Of a stretch of 64,000 bases of DNA, positions 6,778 to 36,342 are shown one piece after another. Position 1 is the stretch's first letter. Each line of letters begins with the position of its first letter. Origin of the DNA: an uncultured Flavobacteriales bacterium (lineage in GTDB: Bacteria; Bacteroidota; Bacteroidia; Flavobacteriales_D; Crocinitomicaceae); the NCBI GenBank assembly GCA_913056215.1, contig CAJXMN010000004.1, forward strand, positions 1-64,000, in the 5' to 3' direction. Made by a program: the position numbers and the translations under genes. The notes under the pieces are model-generated. The model did no database searches and was not told the DNA's origin. It worked only from the letters and a program-made list of their open reading frames with translations.

Positions 6778-7053
6778 GATTCAAAAATAGAAAGAAAATC
6801 AAGCGCCCGTTAGACGATCTATAAAAAATCATTATGTTTACTTTACTATTGGGACAAATTGTACACTAAGCAAAATGAAGTAATAAATATGTTGTACATT
6901 TTGTAATGTTATAAACGAGTTATAACTCATTCATCCGAGACCACATCCTAATTAAAAGCACAAAACCCCAGTTTCATCATCACCACGAGAGTGAGAGAGG
7001 ATTTACTGAGGACTGCGTAACAAAGATACGAATATTCTTTGTATTTTTAAGAT

Positions 7054-7692
7054 ATGGAACTCCAAAAAATCATAAAAGACATTTCTAATGAGCGTTTTAA
7101 GCCGTATTTATTGAGGTGTAATGGAGACCAAAAAAAGGCTTTTATGCTTTATGAATACAATGTAAAGGTTTCACAATCTTTTTACGCGCCACTTTCAGCT
7201 TTAGAAGTGACCTTGAGAAATAAAATAGACGAGTCTTTTAAGGATCATTTTGGTGACGAATTTTGGCTTCGTAACATCTTGCCTCCAGTTATGGGCAAAC
7301 AAGTTACAGATCTTGAACAAAAGCTTGTACAGCGTAAAAAGCACATTTCGAACAGTAGCATACTCGCAGAATTAAACTTTGGCTTTTGGACAATTCTTTT
7401 TAATCGACGTTTTGCAAAAACATATTGGAAGCCATTACACAGAATATTTGAACACATACCTAAACATAAAAGAAAACGCTCAGAAATATCTGCGAAACTA
7501 AACCATATTCGAACCTTTAGAAATAGAATTTATCATTACGAACCAATTATTTGGGATTCAGAGGTACTCGATCAGAAACATGAAGATATTTTGGATGTAC
7601 TCTACTGGTTAAATCCTGAAACTGCGGAATGGGTTAGGTCGATTGATACTTATGAAGATATTAAACGTAGTGTGCGGATGAACGAGTTATAA
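7054..7692 (+). CDS. Abi-like (Abi_2/AbiD-F-type) protein with HEPN RxxxxH motif
   Basis: 212 aa; 'YNVKVSQSFYAPLSALEVTLRNKID' and 'RTFRNRIYHYEPI' (R-N-R-I-Y-H). Confidence 0.75.
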   Translation: MELQKIIKDISNERFKPYLLRCNGDQKKAFMLYEYNVKVSQSFYAPLSALEVTLRNKIDESFKDHFGDEFWLRNILPPVMGKQVTDLEQKLVQRKKHISNSSILAELNFGFWTILFNRRFAKTYWKPLHRIFEHIPKHKRKRSEISAKLNHIRTFRNRIYHYEPIIWDSEVLDQKHEDILDVLYWLNPETAEWVRSIDTYEDIKRSVRMNEL

Positions 7693-7816
7693 CACGGGCT
7701 ATACAATCACCGCCACCTTGCATCGCTGTGGATAATTTAAAGGTATATGAAACTTTTGTATCTTAGAGGAAAGTTTAAGGGTGAAGGCGGCGCTGCATAG
7801 CCCGAGACCGTTATGG
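7688..7816 (+). repeat. attC-like site (candidate) after the Abi-type gene
   Basis: TTATAAC (7688-7694) - CGGGCTAT (7695-7702) - CGCCACCTT ... AAGGCGGCG - ATAGCCCG (7797-7804) - AGACC - GTTATGG (7810-7816); nested inverted arms. Confidence 0.5.
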
Positions 7817-7914
7817 GCAAGCTTAAAAACCCACCGCACAAACAGCACATTTGGTTTTTGCCGACACACGAGCCAACGTAGAAAAACCAAAAGAGCTGTT
7901 TCTTGCCAACATAA
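7811..7914. repeat. long imperfect hairpin element, left boundary of DISARM-like operon
   Basis: TTATG/CATAA, GGCAAG(7816-7821)/CTTGCC(7902-7907), AACAGC(7841-7846)/GCTGTT(7895-7900), internal loop ACA/AGA, TTTGGTTTTT(7850-7859)/AAAAACCAAA(7882-7891). Confidence 0.7.
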
Positions 7915-7936
7915 AAAAATGATGTAATTTAGGAAA

Positions 7937-10306
7937 ATGGATGGAATAGAAAAATACTTAGAAGAATTAACTTCAAAATCTCAAAAATACCTCAATAAAG
8001 CATACAATCTTAATGCATTCCGTCCATCAAACTTTGAGTTGATAAATTTCTATTTATTAGATAAAGCTATCAATCAGCAGCGGAACTTATACATACAGGT
8101 AAACGACCCTAAACAGAGAAATGAAACTTACCGACCTTCATTTTTGACTATCGCTATTTCTTTATTCTTTAAAAATTATTGTGATAATGACAACGTAGAA
8201 TACAAAGTGGGTGATATTTTACAAAAAGGTAAAACAAGATATGAATATGTTAAAAAAAATAATAACGGTACGCATCGCTTGAAAACATCCAGCGCAGTTT
8301 ATCCTGAAGTTTCATCAAAAAATTTACGAAAATATGCCAAAGTAAATGCCAAATTATCGAATAGAAAGGTTAAAACAGGGTTTAAACACTATAAGAACTT
8401 CTTTAACCAAGTATTTGAAGGAATTGGCGAACAATTGCCTTATCAATTCAAGTATAAAGCAACTATAATCCTTGACAAAAAACCTTTTCTAAAGGAACTC
8501 AAAGACCAATCCTTTACTGACATTGATCTTACAAAGGCTATCCCATTTCAATGGGTTAACAAAAATGGAAAATTTGAAACCCCAAAGGTTCCTATTGACC
8601 CAATGATTTATATGGGACCCGATTATGACACCATCAAAGAAAATATTATTGACCAAGGAATCAATATTGAATCAGTAATTATAATCGGGAAAAACAAGTA
8701 CAAAGAAGATGATTTGCTAAAACTGAAGCAAGATCTAAGATATGAAGAAGTTCCCTTTTCAATTCTTATCGGCAACGAAGAAATTAATGACGATAATGAT
8801 TTATTTCTACAATGGAAATGGACACCGGAAGAAATATCTATACTAAATGATATTGAACAAGCTGTTATCTCAAGTATAGAAGTTCCAGAAAACAATTTTA
8901 TAGGCCAAATAGTAAAAGTTGAAACTTTCATAAAAGGACTAAAAAGTAAATACAGTTTTGAGCTTCCTTCCTTTGCGAAAATAAAGAAACTTTTATACGC
9001 CTTAGCCTTGCCCAATACAGAAGGTAGAATAGCAAACCAAATAGAATACATTCGCTATCGAATAAACAAAGACTTCACTGAAAGTATTAAGTCTGAATTA
9101 CTTAATCAAAATATTGACCCACAAGAGACTTTAGCTCGGTTTGCTAAAAAAGTTGATGAGATTTTTAAAGTTTTCAAAAACATAAAATTCGACGAAATAA
9201 ATGATATAGAGTTTGACTTTTTGGTTGTTCCTAACTTTTTTGAAGATATATGGAAAGATGAAAGTGATTTTAAGCTTCTAAGCTTTAAAGAATTTAAGAA
9301 AAGAATAGATGGGTTTACCACTGTAAAAAACTTCCTTTTTATCAGTCCATTTGGTTATCAAATCTACACTGAAGATTTGCTAAAACTTTGTAGGAACACA
9401 AATCACAATTATCAATTTTTATGTTACCCTGAAGAAGTACAAGTTGTAGAGACTTTACAGAATCGGCATAAACGAAAGGTCTTAGAAGAATTAAGCTCTA
9501 AGAACCGCAGGGAACTAAGTGAAGTTAAATTCTCTATTCCTAAAAATGAGCCTGAACCAGAAAATATTGCCGAACTCATCGGGAGAATAAGCAGCAATGA
9601 CCATTCAAATAATGGTCGCTATACTTATGAGTACTCAGAATCAGTTAACTACGAAATTGAGTGTGTGGATGGTGAACCAATTATTGTAGAAGGCAGTAAA
9701 TCCGTCTTATTGGAAAACACGCACAAAAAGAGAAGAATTAGAGTACGTAGTTTAAAAAGAGATGACAAAATAAGAGTGTATTCAAATCTAAGAAAAGAAA
9801 TCCTATTTGATACTGCAACTAAACAAGATGAAAGTGGTAGCTTTTCAAAAATTGAAAGCAATGCACAACTTTGGAAACAATGCCTTCAGGAATATTACAG
9901 TAACCAAAATGCACTATATTCTGAAGATGATTTGCTAAAAGATTTACAGAAAAATGGGGTTTCAATTACTAGTAGTTATACACTTCGTAATTGGCTAAGT
10001 TCTGAAAGTACCATTAAGTTTCCACAAAAAACAGATGATTTGTATGCTATAAATAAATGCATTGATAATCCAGTTTTTAAAAGTAAATTACCGGAAATAA
10101 TCAAAAGCAAAGAAGTTTACAACGGAATAATGATAGCTTTGGGGCGTGATTTGAGCGATGAAGTGATGGATTATATTTTAAAAGGTAAAAAAGGAGAAAT
10201 CTTATCTACTTTTTCAGATGATGAGATAAAGTCAATTGTTAAAAGTACCGCACCTTTAAAAACCATCAGTGAAATCAATATTACAGAACAAAATGAAACA
10301 GAATGA
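7937..10306 (+). CDS. DrmE-like protein of a class 2 DISARM-type system
   Basis: 789 aa ORF directly upstream of and overlapping the DrmA-like helicase; position and size as for DrmE; C-terminal 'DDKIRVYSNLRKEILFDTA...QLWKQCLQEYY' region. Family call partly by context. Confidence 0.6.
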   Translation: MDGIEKYLEELTSKSQKYLNKAYNLNAFRPSNFELINFYLLDKAINQQRNLYIQVNDPKQRNETYRPSFLTIAISLFFKNYCDNDNVEYKVGDILQKGKTRYEYVKKNNNGTHRLKTSSAVYPEVSSKNLRKYAKVNAKLSNRKVKTGFKHYKNFFNQVFEGIGEQLPYQFKYKATIILDKKPFLKELKDQSFTDIDLTKAIPFQWVNKNGKFETPKVPIDPMIYMGPDYDTIKENIIDQGINIESVIIIGKNKYKEDDLLKLKQDLRYEEVPFSILIGNEEINDDNDLFLQWKWTPEEISILNDIEQAVISSIEVPENNFIGQIVKVETFIKGLKSKYSFELPSFAKIKKLLYALALPNTEGRIANQIEYIRYRINKDFTESIKSELLNQNIDPQETLARFAKKVDEIFKVFKNIKFDEINDIEFDFLVVPNFFEDIWKDESDFKLLSFKEFKKRIDGFTTVKNFLFISPFGYQIYTEDLLKLCRNTNHNYQFLCYPEEVQVVETLQNRHKRKVLEELSSKNRRELSEVKFSIPKNEPEPENIAELIGRISSNDHSNNGRYTYEYSESVNYEIECVDGEPIIVEGSKSVLLENTHKKRRIRVRSLKRDDKIRVYSNLRKEILFDTATKQDESGSFSKIESNAQLWKQCLQEYYSNQNALYSEDDLLKDLQKNGVSITSSYTLRNWLSSESTIKFPQKTDDLYAINKCIDNPVFKSKLPEIIKSKEVYNGIMIALGRDLSDEVMDYILKGKKGEILSTFSDDEIKSIVKSTAPLKTISEINITEQNETE

Positions 10307-12503
10307 TATAGACTTTTTAGCAAGAGAAAAATTCCAAAATAGAATTCAAAAGGGAATGATTGGTCCGGGTTCTGATACTTGGGGTTTACCAGACAGAGAA
10401 GAAATTATTTCTAATGATACGCCGTTACAACGATATTTTTCGGGTGTTTTATTCCCTGAAAAAGAAAAAGTTACCACACAAGATGAAGAAGATACCGCAT
10501 CACTGCAGAGCAATTCTGAAATAGCCGATCCAGAACCTAATGAAAGTACTGAAGCAGAAAGCGAAGAAGAACAAGATAAACCTCAATCGAGTTCTGAAAG
10601 CGAAGCAGATAAGATTAGCAAGACAAATTTTTTCCCAACCAATATCGGTCTCTCAGTTTGTGTGCCTAAAGAAACGGCTGAATTTGATGTTATATTTTCA
10701 TTTGGCTTATATCATCAACCTAAAAATAAGGATATAAAAATAAAAATTAATGAACAGGGATATCGTTCCTTTTTTGAAGAAAAGCATATTCCCTACGGGT
10801 TTCCATTCAAAGATATTTTGAAATACGAAGATGGATTTATGTTTTTGGAACGCCCTTTAAAAGGGTTTGCAGGTGGAAAAGGGAAACAACGAAGTGGAGA
10901 GTATAAACAGTTTGATGAATTTAAACGAATAAGTAATCTAAAGGATTCTTCAGCACAATATTACATTGATAGGCTCGACAGATTGATTAGTCAAAGTAGA
11001 GTTTGGAAACGAGTTGACTATGAAATTCAAAAAACTATTCCTGTTCAATCCACAGAAAATCCAACTTCCTTAAATATAGAAAGTGAAACAAACAAAGGAA
11101 CGGATATAGGGTATAATATGAGGGTTATTGAACAAGGCAATAGGAAATTTATAAAAGTCCAATTGGTCAACCTTTCTGAAAAACAATCGCAAAAAAGGTT
11201 TTCCAATAAGAATGAGAACTTAAATCTCAAAAGTATCTTCCAAGCTGAAATTAAAGTGAATTCCGTACATTTTCTTCCTTTTGAAAACCATAGTCCAAGA
11301 AGTAAAGATTTTCAAGATGATGAAGCAAAAGAGTTAGATTTTATTTATCGTTCCATAAATAATTATTCAATCGGACACAATTGTTCTACGTATTGGGATG
11401 AAAGTCACACTGAAATAAAGACTACATTTCTTCCAGTTCAAGATGTTAAAGACACCGTAAATACATTTAGTAAAGAAGATAAAAAGCTAAATAGAGCATT
11501 AGATGTCAAAAACCTGTCTGTATGGGGGCTTAATCAAAATGACTTAATAGAACATCTCGATTATTTTATCGCCCAATATTCCGATTGGATTGAAAAACAG
11601 AAGGAGTTAAACAGTAAAGAAAATACAGAGAATCAAAAAATCGGAAAAGATATAATTGACCGACAAGAAGCAAACTTAAATCGATTAAATAAAAATATAA
11701 AATTATTACAAGATGAAGATGTTTTAAGAGCTTTCAGGATAGCCAACACCGCAATGTATATTCAACTCATTACTTCAAATGATGATGATTTTGCAATAAC
11801 GGAAAAGGAGCTCAAAGATGCATCAAAAGAGAACCTTGACAGTTTAAACTTTTTTGAAAATTATGATGCTGAAAAAAGAGTCCGAAACGGAAAAATTGAT
11901 TTTGTTCCTGCTTATCGGCCATTTCAATTGGCATTTCTACTTTTAAGCATAGATGGTATTGTAAACCCAGAAAGTCAATCAAGAAATAATATAGTTGATT
12001 TAATTTGGTTTCCCACAGGTGGCGGTAAAACAGAAGCATATTTGGCAGTTGCAGCACTAACGATTGCTTTCAGAAGGTTAAATAATGAAACCGGATTTGA
12101 AGGTACTTCCGTCATAATGCGTTATACTTTAAGACTGCTTACTGCACAACAATTTGAAAGGGCTTCTCGTTTGATAACAGCATTAGAATTTTTAAGAAAG
12201 CAAAAAGAATTTTCTAATGATTTGAAAGACGAACCAATCTCAATTGGTTTATGGGTGGGAATGGGTTCGACACCTAATGATATCAAAGGAGCTAAAAGTC
12301 AAATTCGTAAAATCGAAAATGAATGCAACAAAAAAAACGGAAACCCGGAAGAGCAGAATTCATTTCAGATAAGTAGCTGCCCTTGGTGTGGCACGAAATT
12401 AATTACACCTTACACAACTAAAAGTGGAAATGTTGTTTGGAAATCGGGATTCTCACATAGCAAGAAAGAAGGTTTTATAATGAAGTGTAATAACGAAGCT
12501 TGA
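10293..12503 (+). CDS. drmA: DrmA-like DISARM helicase, N-terminal part (Walker A), interrupted ORF
   Basis: 'IWFPTGGGKTEAYLAVAALTIAFRR', acidic linker then 'FFPTNIGLSVCV'; start ATG 10293 overlaps the upstream gene; ends in zinc-binding-like 'CPWCGT...KCNNEA*'. Confidence 0.85.
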   Translation: MKQNDIDFLAREKFQNRIQKGMIGPGSDTWGLPDREEIISNDTPLQRYFSGVLFPEKEKVTTQDEEDTASLQSNSEIADPEPNESTEAESEEEQDKPQSSSESEADKISKTNFFPTNIGLSVCVPKETAEFDVIFSFGLYHQPKNKDIKIKINEQGYRSFFEEKHIPYGFPFKDILKYEDGFMFLERPLKGFAGGKGKQRSGEYKQFDEFKRISNLKDSSAQYYIDRLDRLISQSRVWKRVDYEIQKTIPVQSTENPTSLNIESETNKGTDIGYNMRVIEQGNRKFIKVQLVNLSEKQSQKRFSNKNENLNLKSIFQAEIKVNSVHFLPFENHSPRSKDFQDDEAKELDFIYRSINNYSIGHNCSTYWDESHTEIKTTFLPVQDVKDTVNTFSKEDKKLNRALDVKNLSVWGLNQNDLIEHLDYFIAQYSDWIEKQKELNSKENTENQKIGKDIIDRQEANLNRLNKNIKLLQDEDVLRAFRIANTAMYIQLITSNDDDFAITEKELKDASKENLDSLNFFENYDAEKRVRNGKIDFVPAYRPFQLAFLLLSIDGIVNPESQSRNNIVDLIWFPTGGGKTEAYLAVAALTIAFRRLNNETGFEGTSVIMRYTLRLLTAQQFERASRLITALEFLRKQKEFSNDLKDEPISIGLWVGMGSTPNDIKGAKSQIRKIENECNKKNGNPEEQNSFQISSCPWCGTKLITPYTTKSGNVVWKSGFSHSKKEGFIMKCNNEA

Positions 12504-13969
12504 CTTGCTCAAATGGAATTTCTGTACAAGTTATTGATGAAGAACTATATCAAAAGCCGCCTACCCTACTATTTGGTACTGTCGACAAATTTGCGATGTT
12601 GGCTTGGCAAAACAAAGCGCACAACTTTTTTAATTCTTTAGATGACGAAAAGTTACCCCCTGATTTGATTATTCAAGATGAATTACACCTATTAAGTGGT
12701 CCACTTGGTTCTATAACAGGAATTTTTGAAAGTGTCATTGAAGATTTGGCAACTAAAAACGGAATACCCCCCAAAATAATTGCTTCAACTGCAACTACAA
12801 GAAATACAGAATTTCAGGTTAACAATCTTTATGGTAATAGAGATGTCAATGTATTTCCCCCTTCAGGAACAAATTATAATGACAGCTATTTTGCCGTAGA
12901 AAGTGATAAAAGCAAACGTAGATATATTGGGTTTATGCCAACAGGTAAAACTTCAATTGATACCCAGTTGCAAATGTTGGCGCATTTATTAGTAGCCCGC
13001 TTAGAAGTCTATGATGACCAAAAAACTAAAAATTCGATTGATAAATATTGGACGATTGTTTCTTATTACAACAGCTTAAAGGATGTAGGGAAAATATTTA
13101 ATAAAGTTGGTGATGAAGTCTCAACTTTCACGTCAACATTGCAACATAGATTAAATGAAATTTTTAGAGACGGTTCGAAAGAATATACCTTTAACCACTT
13201 TGGACTTCCAAATCGCACACAGGAACTAACCAGTCGAATTGATAGCACCAAAATAAAATCAGTTTTAGGGAAAATTGAGACGTCCTTCAACAATGAAAAT
13301 ATAACGCATAGTCAAAAAGGTTATACCTATCTAAATGATGTAGTAGATTTTGTTTTAGCTACAAATATGATTTCGGTTGGAATTGATATAAGCAGATTAA
13401 ATATTATGCTTATTAATGGTATGCCTAAAAACATTGCTGAATACATCCAGGCATCCAGTAGAATTGGAAGAAGTACAAAAGGATTAGCCATAACTCTTTT
13501 AAATCCCAATAGAGCAAGAGAAAAATCATATTTCGAACATTTTAATAATTTTCACCAAGCATTTTATAAAAATGTAGAACCATTGAGTATAACGCCATTT
13601 ACGGACAATACAATTGATAAAATGCTTTCAAGTTTAATGGTAACTTACATCAGAAATAAGATACCCGGAAAAACAGGAAATAAAGATGTCGTGCACTTCC
13701 AGAAAGAAGATATTGAAGGTCTAAAAACCTTGATAAAAAATCGTTTCGGAGAACATACGGCGGAGTTCAATTGGTTTGAACGGAAATTAGACAATTTAGC
13801 TTACGATTGGATTGCAAGGATTAGAGAATCAGGCATAAAAGAATATAAAGAATTATTAAAAAAGCCGGCAGAGAAAAATGAGAACCAAGATTGGGTCTTA
13901 ATGCAATCGATGAGAGAAATTGACAGCAATACCTACATTAATATTAAAGCGAACTTTAGAGATGAGTGA
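12500..13969 (+). CDS. drmA: DrmA-like DISARM helicase, C-terminal part (DExH box and helicase C)
   Basis: 'PTLLFGTVDKFAMLAW', 'LIIQDELHLLSGPLGSITGIFE', 'ASTATTRN', 'ATNMISVGIDISRLNIMLINGMPKNIAEYIQASSRIGRS'; begins with TTG sharing TTGA with the upstream stop. Confidence 0.85.
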   Translation: MTCSNGISVQVIDEELYQKPPTLLFGTVDKFAMLAWQNKAHNFFNSLDDEKLPPDLIIQDELHLLSGPLGSITGIFESVIEDLATKNGIPPKIIASTATTRNTEFQVNNLYGNRDVNVFPPSGTNYNDSYFAVESDKSKRRYIGFMPTGKTSIDTQLQMLAHLLVARLEVYDDQKTKNSIDKYWTIVSYYNSLKDVGKIFNKVGDEVSTFTSTLQHRLNEIFRDGSKEYTFNHFGLPNRTQELTSRIDSTKIKSVLGKIETSFNNENITHSQKGYTYLNDVVDFVLATNMISVGIDISRLNIMLINGMPKNIAEYIQASSRIGRSTKGLAITLLNPNRAREKSYFEHFNNFHQAFYKNVEPLSITPFTDNTIDKMLSSLMVTYIRNKIPGKTGNKDVVHFQKEDIEGLKTLIKNRFGEHTAEFNWFERKLDNLAYDWIARIRESGIKEYKELLKKPAEKNENQDWVLMQSMREIDSNTYINIKANFRDE

Positions 13970-15905
13970 TTATAAATATACCGAAACGCAAACAAGAAAA
14001 GTTATAAGCTCTTATGGCGGTGTTGAGTCAATCATCGAAACACCTAAAGGAGCATTGAAAATTGAGCCTTTTGACAAATGGCCATTTTTTAGGGCTATTC
14101 AAGATGGTAAAATTCAACCGGAAGAATTTGTTATTAACGACAATAGGTTATTAAAACGTCTTCAAACTCAAAAAGGATTTCCGAAACTCAAAGAATTTTT
14201 GAGAATTCCACCTAATCACGCACATCCCCAAAATAAATCAATTCCAGTTAACTCTTTAGAAACGATTAGCTCAACCTATTTCCCTGAATGGTTCTATTGT
14301 AATAATTGCGAACGATTTAAAAATATTCACGAATGGTGGCGAGAATGGAAAAGGATTATTCAAAAACACAGAGGACAAGCAAATAAAAGTGATTTTATTC
14401 CGCCTAAATGTCCGTATTGCTATGATAAAGTCAAGGAAAATCAAAAAAAAAGCGGCAAATGGAACCGTTTTTATTATGATTTAGAACAGGTTCGGTTCGT
14501 GATGACAGCACCAACAGGTGAAATAAGAGATTTCCCTTGGGAACGGTGGAACAAGGCTACAAAAGAGTTCTCAGAAAATCAAGATGACAGTACTGATAAA
14601 AAGAAAAGCGGAATTCATTTTGATTGGGAAAATTTATGTTGCGACAACCCTGATTTGAAATATTTTAAATCGCAAAAGTATTCTGATTTGGCGGGTATTC
14701 GCATCGAGTGTAAAAATTGTGGTGCTAAAAATACCTTGTCCGGTTTTTTTGGAACAAGGGTGAGGGTTCCAAAGAAAAATGACATTTATTTCAAACCCGT
14801 TTTAAGGACCAGTAATAGTTGCTATTATCCAATATTGGTAAGTAGTATTTATTTGCCAACAAAAAGAGAAATTGATATTGAAGACCAAAAAGCAATAAAA
14901 GATTGGAACGAAGAAGGAGAAGATCTTGATTTCATTTTCAAGGCACTTAAAAAAAAATACCCTATAGAAAAAATTAAAAACTTTATTAATGGAAATATAG
15001 AAGGAGAATTTGAGCCTGAAATTGAATACAGATTAAAAGAGTTTGACTTCATTACAGAGCCAAGCAGAGAGAAATATCCTAAAGCCGAATCAGATGACCA
15101 TAATTTGGTTTTTAAAAGGGAGAAATTAACTCAGTTATCCAAATATGGCATAAATAATTTAACAGCAATAAAACGCCTAAAAATAACAACCGTTCAGACG
15201 GCTTATTCAAGACAGGAACCCATTGATAGTGATCAATTTTTAAATGATGAAAAATCAGAGAATAATATCGAAGCAAAATACACTTCAAAATGGGCAAACC
15301 AAACAAAATATTTACCTGCTATTGAAAGTTTTGGCGAAGGTATTTTCCTTTCACTCGAAGAAGAAAAAATAAATAAATGGCTTAACGCTTCAAACAGAAA
15401 TGAAAAATTTAAGGACAGAATAAAACAATTATTTGAGAACTCAAAAAACAGTGACTTAACGAGTGTTCAGAAAAAATTTAAGGATGAAAATCATTTATCT
15501 CGCTTTGTGCTTATTCACACTTTATCACACATTTTGATTAAAGAATTGGAATTCTTGTGTGGTTATCCTGCAACCTCTTTAAACGAGCGGCTGTTTATTG
15601 ATGAAAATCAAATGGCGGGAGTATTAATTTATACCGTTGCAGGTGCAGAAGGAAGTTATGGCGGTTTAGTTTCTCAAGCTTCTGAAAAGAATTTCAACCG
15701 AATATTAGATTCAGCTTTATATAGGGCAGAAGATTGTGCTTCAGATCCAATTTGTTACAATACAGAAGATGGTCAAGGTGTTGGTGGATTAAATATGGCA
15801 GCTTGTTATTCTTGCTCATTATTGCCGGAAAACTCTTGCGAAGAATTTAATAGTTTTCTTGACCGTTCCTTGCTGATTGATGATGAATATGGTTTTTTTA
15901 AATAG
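13962..15905 (+). CDS. drmB: DrmB-like (DUF1998 domain) DISARM protein
   Basis: 'GGLNMAACYSCSLLPENSCEEFNSFLDRSLL', 'HTLSHILIKELEFLCGYPATSLNERLF', several CxxC pairs; ATG 13962 overlaps end of preceding ORF. Confidence 0.85.
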   Translation: MSDYKYTETQTRKVISSYGGVESIIETPKGALKIEPFDKWPFFRAIQDGKIQPEEFVINDNRLLKRLQTQKGFPKLKEFLRIPPNHAHPQNKSIPVNSLETISSTYFPEWFYCNNCERFKNIHEWWREWKRIIQKHRGQANKSDFIPPKCPYCYDKVKENQKKSGKWNRFYYDLEQVRFVMTAPTGEIRDFPWERWNKATKEFSENQDDSTDKKKSGIHFDWENLCCDNPDLKYFKSQKYSDLAGIRIECKNCGAKNTLSGFFGTRVRVPKKNDIYFKPVLRTSNSCYYPILVSSIYLPTKREIDIEDQKAIKDWNEEGEDLDFIFKALKKKYPIEKIKNFINGNIEGEFEPEIEYRLKEFDFITEPSREKYPKAESDDHNLVFKREKLTQLSKYGINNLTAIKRLKITTVQTAYSRQEPIDSDQFLNDEKSENNIEAKYTSKWANQTKYLPAIESFGEGIFLSLEEEKINKWLNASNRNEKFKDRIKQLFENSKNSDLTSVQKKFKDENHLSRFVLIHTLSHILIKELEFLCGYPATSLNERLFIDENQMAGVLIYTVAGAEGSYGGLVSQASEKNFNRILDSALYRAEDCASDPICYNTEDGQGVGGLNMAACYSCSLLPENSCEEFNSFLDRSLLIDDEYGFFK

Positions 15906-15929
15906 TAAAGAATATGCCAAAGCTAAAGC

Positions 15930-15988
15930 CATACACATTTGCAATTCGCTGCAGCCAGCCGCGCAAGCCAAAATTGCAAAAGAGTATG
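15930..15988. repeat. hairpin element related to 7811-7914, right boundary of DISARM-like operon
   Basis: CATAC(15930-15934)/GTATG(15984-15988), internal loop ACA/AGA, TTTGCAATT(15938-15946)/AATTGCAAA(15972-15980); shares CACATTTG and CAAAAGAG with left element. Confidence 0.65.
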
Positions 15989-16041
15989 TCTCTGACAACG
16001 CTGAAAACCAAGCAGAAGGAAGAAAGCCAGCAGAGAACATT

Positions 16042-16150
16042 GTATAAGCGTAATGCGGGTTGTGTGGCTAAAATTCAGTATTTTGGCATCTATTAAAGTT
16101 AGGTGTAAACGGAGAGTGAATCGCTCCGAAATCCCGCACTACGCTTATAC
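16042..16150. repeat. 18-bp inverted repeat (17/18) between drmB and valS
   Basis: gtataagcgtaatgcggg (16042-16059) vs cccgcactacgcttatac (16133-16150), with an inner CGGAG...CTCCG hairpin. Confidence 0.75.
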
Positions 16151-16157
16151 TTGACCC

Positions 16158-18788
16158 TTATTTCATAGCGTCTAGTTTTTCTTCAATCATTGAGATTTTC
16201 GATTGAGCGTCCGCTTGTTTTTTCTTTTCAGCTTCTACAACCTGTTCTGGAGCATTATTTACAAAGCGCTCATTGCCAAGTTTTTTCTGTACAGATTTTA
16301 AAAATCCTTTGGTATAATCGAGTTCTTCTTGCAATTTCTCGCGTTCCGCTTCAGTATCTACATTTTCACCAAACGGAATAAAATAGTCCGTGTTTTGAAC
16401 GATGAAAGAAAAGGCATCTCCCATCTTTTCATCAGTATATTCGAGAGCGGATAGATTACCCATCTTGCGCAAAACTTCATCCATGTTTGAAGGATGGTGC
16501 GCTGACTTTAAAATGTTGAGATCCATTTTGATTTTATTGGCAATGTTGTTTTGTTTCCGCACATTGCGAATATTTGTCACGACTTCTGAAACGACCTTGA
16601 AATCGTCGATAATCGCTTCGTCGATAGCCCCATCTCTAGGCCATTTTGCAACAATCAGGTCATCTCCTGATTCGCGTCTTTCAATGAGATGCCAGAGTTC
16701 TTCAGAGACAAAGGGTGTAAACGGATGAACGAGTTTCAAGAGTTGTTCGAAATAAAAGATAGATCTCGCTTTGGTTTTGCTGTCAATCGGTTGCTGATAA
16801 CCGGGCTTCACCATTTCCAAAAACCATGAGCAATAATCATCCCATACCAGTTTATAAGTCGCCATCAAAGCATCAGAGATTCTGAATTTTTCAAATTGTT
16901 CATTGATGTGCAGGAGTACCTGGTTGAATCGACTCTCGAACCAGTCGATTGCAATACGGGAAGATTCGGGTTGTTCTAAATCCTCTTTTACGTCCCATGA
17001 ATCGATCAAACGAAAAGCATTCCACATTTTATTGGAAAAATTCCTTCCTTGCTCACATTGATTGGAATCAAAGGGCAGGTCATTTCCGGCGGGAGAGGAT
17101 ACTAGCATACCAACGCGAACCCCGTCCGCTCCGTATTTTTTAATGAGTTCGAGTGGGTCGGGCGAATTACCGAGAGATTTCGACATTTTTCGACCCAATT
17201 TATCGCGTACAATACCTGTATAGTAAACATTGCGGAAAGGCAATTCATCCATGTATTCATAGCCTGCAATAACCATTCGGGCAACCCAGAAAAACATTAT
17301 TTCAGGCGCCGTAACCAAGTCGTTTGTCGGATAGTAATATTGAATTTCTTTATTTCCAGGCTGTGTCAAACCATTAAAGACAGAAATGGGCCATAACCAG
17401 CTGGAAAACCACGTATCCATAACATCTTCGTCTTGCTGTATGTCATTTTCCGAGAGCTGTTTTCCTGTTTTGTCTTCAATTAGGGATAAGGCCTCTTTAG
17501 CGGTTTTAGCTACCACAAAATCATCGTCATCCTCACCATAATACCAGGCTGGAATACGATGACCCCACCACAATTGTCGCGAAATACACCAATCTTTGAT
17601 ATTTTCCATCCAGTGGCGATACGTATTTTTCATATTGTCTGGATAGAATTTAATATCACCATTCATGACATGTTCGAGTGCCGGTTCAGATAATTGCTTC
17701 ATATCTACAAACCACTGCAGCGAGAGTCGTGGTTCAATAACGGCGTCTGTACGTTCTGAAAAACCTAATTTATTGATATGGTCTTCCACTTTAATAAGGT
17801 AACCTTTATCCTCCAGTTCGTTGGCTATAGCTTTTCTTGCTTCGAAGCGATCTCTGCCCTCGTAGTGGAGTCCTTTAGCATTGAGCGATCCGTCTGCATT
17901 TAGAATGTCAATACTTTCTAAATTGTGTCGCTGTCCGAGTTCATAGTCGTTGACATCATGAGCAGGGGTGATCTTTAAACATCCCGTACCGAATTCCATG
18001 TCGACGTATTCATCTTGAATAATTGGGATTTCGCGATCAGCAATAGGAACGACAGCATGTCCTCCCACGAGGTGAGCGTATCGTGCATCATTAGGGTTGA
18101 CGCAGATCGCACTGTCTCCTAATATCGTTTCAGGTCGCGTAGTGGCAATCGTTAACCATTCGTCTTCACTTCCTTCGATTTTATAGCGCACGTGAAAGAG
18201 CTTTGAATTGACCTCTTTGTGGATCACTTCTTCATCGGAAAGGGCAGTTTTAGCCGCAGGATCCCAGTTGATCATGCGAACGCCACGGTAGATTTTATCT
18301 TTTTTGAATAGATCGATAAATACATCTACAACGGATTCTGCATACTCGGGATCCATGGTGAAGCTGGTACGTTCCCAATCGCAAGAAGCACCGAGTTTCT
18401 TGAGTTGATCGAGAATGATGCCGCCGTGTTTTTCCTTCCATTCCCACGCGTGTTTCATGAAGTCATCGCGCGAAAGATCTGACTTTTTAATGCCTTCATC
18501 GCGTAGTTTGTTAACTACCTTCGCTTCTGTAGCAATCGAAGCATGGTCCGTTCCCGGAACCCAACACGCATTTTTACCTTGCATGCGGGCGCGGCGTACG
18601 AGCACATCTTGAATGGTATTGTTCAACATGTGTCCCATGTGAAGCACACCTGTGACGTTTGGAGGGGGAATGACAACCGTATATGGTTCTCTGTCATCCG
18701 GTTCACTATGAAAATAGTTTTGCTTTTGCCAGTGATCATACCACTTTTCCTCCGCCTTTCCAGGCTCGTATTTTTTTGGAATCTCCAT
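16158..18788 (-). CDS. valS: valine--tRNA ligase
   Basis: 'PPPNVTGVLHMGHMLNNTIQDVLVRRARMQG', 'KMSKSLGNSPDPLELI', C-terminal coiled coil. Confidence 0.97.
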   Translation of the reverse strand: MEIPKKYEPGKAEEKWYDHWQKQNYFHSEPDDREPYTVVIPPPNVTGVLHMGHMLNNTIQDVLVRRARMQGKNACWVPGTDHASIATEAKVVNKLRDEGIKKSDLSRDDFMKHAWEWKEKHGGIILDQLKKLGASCDWERTSFTMDPEYAESVVDVFIDLFKKDKIYRGVRMINWDPAAKTALSDEEVIHKEVNSKLFHVRYKIEGSEDEWLTIATTRPETILGDSAICVNPNDARYAHLVGGHAVVPIADREIPIIQDEYVDMEFGTGCLKITPAHDVNDYELGQRHNLESIDILNADGSLNAKGLHYEGRDRFEARKAIANELEDKGYLIKVEDHINKLGFSERTDAVIEPRLSLQWFVDMKQLSEPALEHVMNGDIKFYPDNMKNTYRHWMENIKDWCISRQLWWGHRIPAWYYGEDDDDFVVAKTAKEALSLIEDKTGKQLSENDIQQDEDVMDTWFSSWLWPISVFNGLTQPGNKEIQYYYPTNDLVTAPEIMFFWVARMVIAGYEYMDELPFRNVYYTGIVRDKLGRKMSKSLGNSPDPLELIKKYGADGVRVGMLVSSPAGNDLPFDSNQCEQGRNFSNKMWNAFRLIDSWDVKEDLEQPESSRIAIDWFESRFNQVLLHINEQFEKFRISDALMATYKLVWDDYCSWFLEMVKPGYQQPIDSKTKARSIFYFEQLLKLVHPFTPFVSEELWHLIERRESGDDLIVAKWPRDGAIDEAIIDDFKVVSEVVTNIRNVRKQNNIANKIKMDLNILKSAHHPSNMDEVLRKMGNLSALEYTDEKMGDAFSFIVQNTDYFIPFGENVDTEAEREKLQEELDYTKGFLKSVQKKLGNERFVNNAPEQVVEAEKKKQADAQSKISMIEEKLDAMK

Positions 18789-35679: not shown

Positions 35680-35846
35680 TTGTTTTCAAGCGGAGAAAAA
35701 AAGATAGAATTTCATTTGTTGATTTCAGTTTTTTGGCGTATATAAAAAAGTTGTGGTGCATTTGAACCGAATTACATTTTTAGAAATACTTAAATTCTAT
35801 GCTAACATCAATAGTAAATAAATAATGAATGATATTTAATTGAACT

Positions 35847-36206
35847 ATGAGTATATCTCTTGATAATCCTTTATTTATAATTCCATTCTCGACTGGACTA
35901 GTATTTTTGCTTGTCGGATTGATAATGTTAAAATTTCCACCAAAAAAAATAAATGGGCTGTATGGATATAGAACTACGAGTTCAATGAAAAATCAAAAAA
36001 GGTGGGATTTTTCTCAAAAATTCTCAGCGATTGAATTGATTAAACTTGGATCAGTTTTAGCTTTAACTTCTATTATTGGTTTAATATACAATCCAGATGG
36101 TAATCTGGGAATGTTATTAGGGTTAGGATTAATGATATTCATGGTCGTGCTTTTAATTATACGAGTTGAAAAAGCAATTAAGAATAAATTTAAAAAAGAA
36201 GAATGA
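35847..36206 (+). CDS. SdpI-family membrane protein
   Basis: 'FPPKKINGLYGYRTTSSMKNQKRWDFSQKFSA'. Confidence 0.85.
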   Translation: MSISLDNPLFIIPFSTGLVFLLVGLIMLKFPPKKINGLYGYRTTSSMKNQKRWDFSQKFSAIELIKLGSVLALTSIIGLIYNPDGNLGMLLGLGLMIFMVVLLIIRVEKAIKNKFKKEE

Positions 36207-36211
36207 CGACG

Positions 36212-36289
36212 CCACAACGTCACCTAAGCTTCAGCTCTTTAAGTGCATTCGTGGTAGCGCCTCGAAAGCTTAGCTGAGGACCGTTATGG
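36212..36289 (+). repeat. attC-like site (candidate) after SdpI-family gene
   Basis: CCACAAC (36212-36218) ... CCTAAGC / GCTGAGG ... ACC GTTATGG (36283-36289), nested complementarity. Confidence 0.45.
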
Positions 36290-36342
36290 ATAGTGGCGAT
36301 TTGATACCTAGAAACCGTTGCTACAATTGCGAGCAAAAGCAT

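Follow-up and report, generated by a model that had tools for sequence, protein, structure and literature searches.

What are the two similar hairpins that bracket a DISARM-like defence operon in the genome of an uncultured Flavobacteriales bacterium (assembly GCA_913056215.1)? The locus lies in the window analysed here, the first 64,000 nucleotides (nt) of contig CAJXMN010000004.1, and the window features given below are all on the forward strand. The left hairpin (7840-7901, arms 7840-7859 and 7882-7901) has an outer stem AACAGC/GCTGTT, two A·A mismatches and an inner stem TTTGGTTTTT/AAAAACCAAA, and the right hairpin (15927-15991, arms 15927-15946 and 15972-15991) has an outer stem CATAC/GTATG, two A·A mismatches and an inner stem TTTGCAATT/AATTGCAAA. 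A preliminary description located both hairpins correctly but read their common interruption as a symmetric 3x3 internal loop ACA/AGA; the element, C-A-C-A-TTTG / CAAA-A-G-A-G, actually consists of two 1x1 A·A mismatches around one C-G pair. It also proposed that the hairpins are folded-strand recombination sites, boundary elements or structured RNAs. We found that such hairpins are very probably the cassette ends of an integron-type system, and we interpret the two window copies as the structures that terminate one large integron-type gene cassette on its left and on its right. The system appears to be an undescribed, phylum-wide kind of Bacteroidota integron, in which a recombinase gene heads the cassette array.

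The hairpin pair is itself flanked by a long fold on either side (7685-7818 and 16030-16165); the preliminary description had missed both. These folds are attC-like; sites of this kind, folded and ending in AAC and GTT, lie 5' of left hairpins and 3' of right hairpins. The first, belonging to an upstream cassette A, runs from 1L (ATAAC) to 1R (GTTATGGGC) with arms CGGGCTAT/ATAGCCCG; the second has the stem GTATAAGCGTA..GCGGG / CCCGC..TACGCTTATAC. Our covariance model (CM) R2 scored them at 59.6 bits (E 6e-11 in the window) and 88.4 bits (E 5e-17), respectively, both being among its own training sequences (the former in set A6). Bounded by these two sites is cassette B (7810-16157, reaching from its start core through its own attC-like site), which carries the DISARM-like operon. 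Its start core at 7810 is G|TTATGGGC, the left-hairpin motif CACATTTG starts 36 nt 3' of this core, and the right hairpin lies about 22 nt past the last stop (15905) and about 50 nt 5' of the 1L core. In many relatives, attC-like sites with RYYYAAC-like and GTTRRRY-like cores and a core-to-core length of 119-123 were found, and the variable bases after GTT at the cassette start recur as their reverse complement before AAC at the cassette end, as in the start/end pairs GTTACCTGC/GCAGGTAAC (L036), GTTGTGCGG/CCGCACAAC (L038) and GTTATGCCC/GGGCATAAC (L039). Consecutive attC-like pairs in the relatives matched at 4/4 variable core bases in 44 of 73 cases, compared with a mean of 3.4 and a maximum of 9 in 2000 shuffles. 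The core before the left hairpin equalled the 1L after the right hairpin in 10 of 11 hairpin units read by hand, and an independent set yielded seven pairs with the same match over 8-9 nt. We take this reverse complementarity of start core and 1L to be the signature of integron cassettes.

In the 3.2 Mb window genome, an exact pattern search returned only the two window copies, and CM R1 returned the same two (E 8e-22 and 3e-12). Among 119 relatives, the pattern search detected hairpins in 45 genomes, with about 75 clear copies against about two dozen matches of a reversed-pattern control; loose-pattern matches lacking paired arms were discarded, as not all pattern matches are true hairpins. 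The covariance-model search of genome and phylum that had been proposed at the outset did find further copies, R1 detecting them in 64 of 396 genomes and 48 of 172 genera of a phylum sample (E<=1e-6). Their position relative to the attC-like sites was fixed in order and strand. Forty of 57 hairpins lay within 300 nt of a CM R2 attC-like match, all 40 on the same strand and always in the order right hairpin, attC, left hairpin; left hairpins of one class began 36-38 nt past the core, those of other classes about 70-220 nt past it, and right hairpins stood about 35-170 nt before their own attC-like site. Neighbouring hairpins within 20 kb were on the same strand in 46 cases and on opposite strands in none. 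The same attC-hairpin arrangement was found at 14 of 29 phylum-sample loci from genomes outside those used to build R2, and L209 and L213 contain the complete composite of right hairpin, attC and left hairpin. Most array cassettes are small and hairpin-free, and some of 3-12 kb carry one packed operon between a left and a right hairpin: core-matched cassettes measured 3.0-11.8 kb with hairpins (n=6) and 0.6-5.6 kb without (n=38). The fixed strand and place beside attC-like sites, together with the cassette-core matches, bear out the suggestion that the hairpins are boundary elements moving with the cassette. As for folded-strand recombination sites, such a folded site does exist, but it is the adjacent attC-like structure, the hairpins being extra structures inside the cassette ends.

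At L037 (G001:C10, 8397-8585), a left hairpin directly follows a right hairpin with no intervening attC, as in two fused hairpin cassettes. At L207 and L210, two genomes have in common a palindrome just 5' of the left hairpin; after it, the insertion point reads ATTACAGATG|TT, which may be an attI or a secondary site.

We then looked at the recombinase. A search with the IntI model gave only sub-threshold matches, many of them just 5' of hairpin arrays, and the IntI cut-off (TIGR02249) was passed in none of the 119 genomes. The protein of one relative (G008; L069:5059-6096) gave a two-part alignment with IntI4 (2a3v), with 23 residues where IntI4 has 65 (the I2 insertion; about 40 residues fewer), and aligned unbroken to XerA-type recombinases; its predicted fold resembles both XerA and IntI4, with a modest predicted template-modelling score (pTM) of 0.52. 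We classify the array recombinase, by alignment and predicted fold, as a XerA/IntI-like tyrosine recombinase without the I2 insertion of IntI. Hairpins pointed away from the recombinase at 20 of 20 loci. As regards a possible attI site beside the recombinase gene, 73-190 nt separate this gene from the first left hairpin in G131, G216 and G411. Related recombinases head attC-like arrays in the named isolates Flavobacterium psychrophilum DSM 3660, Algibacter onchidii, Seonamhaeicola aphaedonensis and Zunongwangia mangrovi. The G008 protein and its homologues also have an extra N-terminal beta-beta-alpha-beta-beta-alpha domain (L069:5059-5250), apparently repeated in some (L071, L073). A HARP-like reading of this domain, for which one homologue gave a match at just E 0.49 and the domain no fold match of its own, was set aside and kept only as a lead.

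Several observations weigh against an integron-type cassette in the form proposed. Seventeen of the 57 hairpins had no attC-like CM match within 300 nt; these stood at contig ends, in first array cassettes or beside divergent sites. In the window itself, the start core of cassette B (GTTATGGGC) does not match its own 1L (GCAGAGAAC), and its right junction at 16157, which adjoins the valS stop codon, reads C|TT (C|TTA) where G|TT is expected. Because of this core difference and the altered last junction, the ends of cassette B may be hybrid, and cassette B is probably a hybrid or altered cassette. The window genome has one recombinase gene of this clade, found on a separate contig (G000:C133). 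Recombinase genes occurred in 42 of 64 hairpin genomes and 76 of 332 others, an association (odds ratio 6.4, p 8e-11) that in itself speaks for the proposed array but is uncorrected for phylogeny. Since most cassettes work without hairpins, the hairpins are not essential for recombination in general. Finally, we infer cassette movement from sequence alone, and a role for the hairpins from their position, polarity and conservation only.

The other cassettes of the window do have the core match. Cassette A (6919-7809), of integron type, begins with the core G|TTATAACTC at 6919-6928, and this start core, GTTATAACTC, and the cassette's own 1L, GAGTTATAAC (7684-7693), are exact reverse complements. 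It holds an open reading frame (ORF; 7054-7692) whose N-terminal part (residues 4-72) resembles a PD-T4-5 defence protein (PADLOC PDLC04038, E 4e-16). Cassette C (35750-36291), the third, is solitary; its start core GTTGTGG matches its own 1L CCACAAC, its ORF (35847-36206) encodes a membrane-protein-like product of 119 aa, and its short attC-like site (about 80 nt, 36210-36291) was found by R2 at E 0.0025 from outside the training set. At valS, nine same-genus genomes have the gene with different left neighbours, and an empty site is not demonstrable there because these relatives have no common left flank. On the contig with the recombinase gene of the window genome (L072; G000:C133, 4551-6479), that gene is followed by a MazEF-like pair, recognised by eye in the ORF translations, and an attC-like site; this is likely an integron head.

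The cargo of the hairpin cassettes was compared next. Of 20 hairpin units, from the relatives and the window, 19 were packed operons in hairpin orientation, and a second set of units likewise consisted of packed operons with one exception, the same system. This system, a restriction system with genes on both strands (L041 and L248), is the sole mixed-orientation hairpin unit and occurs in two genomes with the hairpin polarity unchanged. The question raised at the outset, whether the hairpins flank defence genes, was put to these units: such genes, called by PADLOC or Pfam, were encoded in 16 of the 20 first units and 8 of 10 further units, 24 of 30 altogether, which is an upper reading because PADLOC scores methyltransferases as defence, and which comes from hairpin units alone, the small hairpin-free cassettes being unscored as a control. 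The systems included Type I, II, IIG and III restriction-modification, Zorya, Z1/MzaC, DpdF-like helicases and the DISARM-like operon. Thus the association with DISARM that had drawn attention to the locus is incidental, the same hairpins bracketing restriction-modification, Zorya, Z1 and other operons.

The bracketed operon of the window resembles DISARM in its drmE, drmA and drmB homologues: a drmE-like gene (7937-10306; Pfam DrmE_C, E 5e-12), the N-terminal part of drmA in an interrupted ORF (10269-12503; PADLOC DrmA, E 1e-77), its C-terminal part (12500-13969; PADLOC DrmA, E 1.5e-114; Pfam Helicase_C) and drmB (13920-15905; NCBIfam DrmB_fam, 323 bits against a cut-off of 240; Pfam MZB). 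DISARM combines drmA and drmB with drmC and a methyltransferase, or has drmE/drmD in variants; no drmC or methyltransferase was found among the four ORFs here, and the hairpins are not a DISARM part. The spread of drmA over two overlapping frames (region 12380-12620) represents a frameshift, a natural split or an assembly error.

Whether the hairpins fold as DNA or as RNA was addressed through their stems. Since MAFFT on the two window copies alone misaligned the arms, copies from relatives were gathered before alignment. The aligned distinct copies share a conserved core CACATTTG/CAAAAGAG, GCCRACRC motifs in the loop and strongly covarying stems. Among 45 distinct copies, 14 of 19 stem pairs varied on both sides, 92.6% of cells were paired against 66.2% in shuffled controls, and the covariation score was 0.612, a value reached by 0 of 500 shuffles (shuffled score 0.140), with slid controls at or below 0.206. 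End-to-end alignment of orthologous Z1 cassettes revealed left-hairpin stems that differ and yet each still pair; this Z1-type system occurs in hairpin cassettes of three genera (L042, L046 and L047), with 65-78% nucleotide identity over aligned stretches. These results uphold the early view that structure rather than sequence is conserved, and, with the pattern search, R1 and the shuffled and slid controls, indicate that the hairpins exceed chance. The main rival reading is an RNA function: the hairpins would work at the transcript level, as structures at 3' ends or as insulators that keep the long operons of an array apart or stabilise them, and would travel with the cassette. It is possible, and several features fit it: all but two of about 38 units consist of one packed operon in hairpin orientation, the right hairpin lies close behind the last stop and the left one ahead of the first gene, and hairpins occur mainly on multi-gene cassettes. 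Nevertheless, the 726 variable stem cells contained 7 G·T against 12 A·C, no wobble excess such as selection for RNA folding should produce; no U-tract as in intrinsic terminators was seen, no Rfam family matched the hairpins, and hairpin polarity stayed constant in the system of mixed gene orientation. Because the stems covary strongly without a G·U excess, folding at the DNA level, for which the invariant A·A mismatches and the constant strand relative to attC also speak, is favoured over folding as RNA, and the early suggestion of structured RNAs is accordingly disfavoured.

How cassettes of this integron type would move can be outlined. The XerA/IntI-like recombinase without I2 would recombine the folded attC-like site, and cassettes would be excised as circles and reinserted at a core site. 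Within such a circle, as at each junction of two hairpin cassettes, the right hairpin, attC and the left hairpin would be adjacent and form a three-hairpin composite. The left and right hairpins, in single-stranded or cruciform form and with their A·A mismatches (T·T on the opposite strand) identifying the strand, would most likely be accessory sites that help to bring the ends of oversized cassettes together or to present them. For this mechanism in its entirety, with folded attC-like recombination by an I2-less enzyme and hairpins as accessory sites, we see an even chance. A more ambitious version, which we regard as doubtful, is that the two hairpins are a second folded-DNA site pair that sets cargo entry into a circular module of right hairpin, attC and left hairpin; they would then be an operon-capture device building large defence cassettes, partnered with an integron recombinase able to deal with folded DNA although it has no I2 helix, perhaps via its extra N-terminal domain.

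It is also conceivable, though unlikely, that the hairpins are functionless relics, palindromes kept matched by template-switch mutation. Template switching can yield paired changes without selection, and such a DNA process could account for the paired stem changes; it would, however, erase the A·A mismatches too, and both of these were kept in 66 of 66 distinct copies across the phylum, along with TTTG/CAAA and the C-G pairs. Very improbable is a second mobile element with IS200/IS605-like ends bound by a HUH transposase in trans, through which cargo entered attC cassettes: IS200/IS605 ends are two like-oriented mismatched hairpins, one at each cargo end, a layout that ours resembles, as it does REP elements, and L037 has its two hairpins side by side, but no transposase gene was found among the searched unit proteins, nor a Y1 HUH domain in the window unit, and the hairpins keep fixed distances from the integron cores, no independent insertion sites being seen.

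The system proposed here resembles chromosomal integrons (attC, IntI; Vibrio superintegrons) in its folded imperfect palindromes of about 120-138 nt with RYYYAAC-like and GTTRRRY-like cores, in start cores that, cassette B apart, mostly match their own 1L, and in tandem co-oriented arrays that lead away from a tyrosine recombinase gene, with solitary clusters elsewhere. It differs in a recombinase without the I2/patch insertion, in cassettes that hold whole operons and reach about 12 kb, and in paired terminal hairpins. The I2/patch insertion has been treated as integron-defining or essential (PMC9668308, PMC8138268), an early integron survey retained patch-bearing sequences only (PMC2426708), and gain of the I2 helix is described as the step to single-strand recombination (PMC7790495). 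In the open-access papers searched, Bacteroidetes integrons come down to array-less integrases and a single complete integron, the one that IntegronFinder 2.0 reported in Salinibacter ruber (PMC9024848). Vibrio integrons are likewise defence reservoirs, with anti-phage genes in cassette arrays (for example PMC12409362), whereas here multi-gene systems (Type I/III restriction-modification, Zorya, DISARM-like) sit in single hairpin-bracketed cassettes. A search of the open-access literature, which did not extend to subscription papers and preprints, found no account of such arrays or hairpins.

In the prevailing view, integrons are nearly absent from Bacteroidota and recombination of folded single-stranded attC sites needs the I2 helix. 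If the arrays function in the way that the sequences imply, an integron type that is common but overlooked moves whole defence operons across the phylum with an I2-less recombinase. The origin of integron recombination from Xer recombination would then be directly testable in natural enzymes, and the paired hairpins would be both a new cassette component and a practical marker for complete mobile defence systems.
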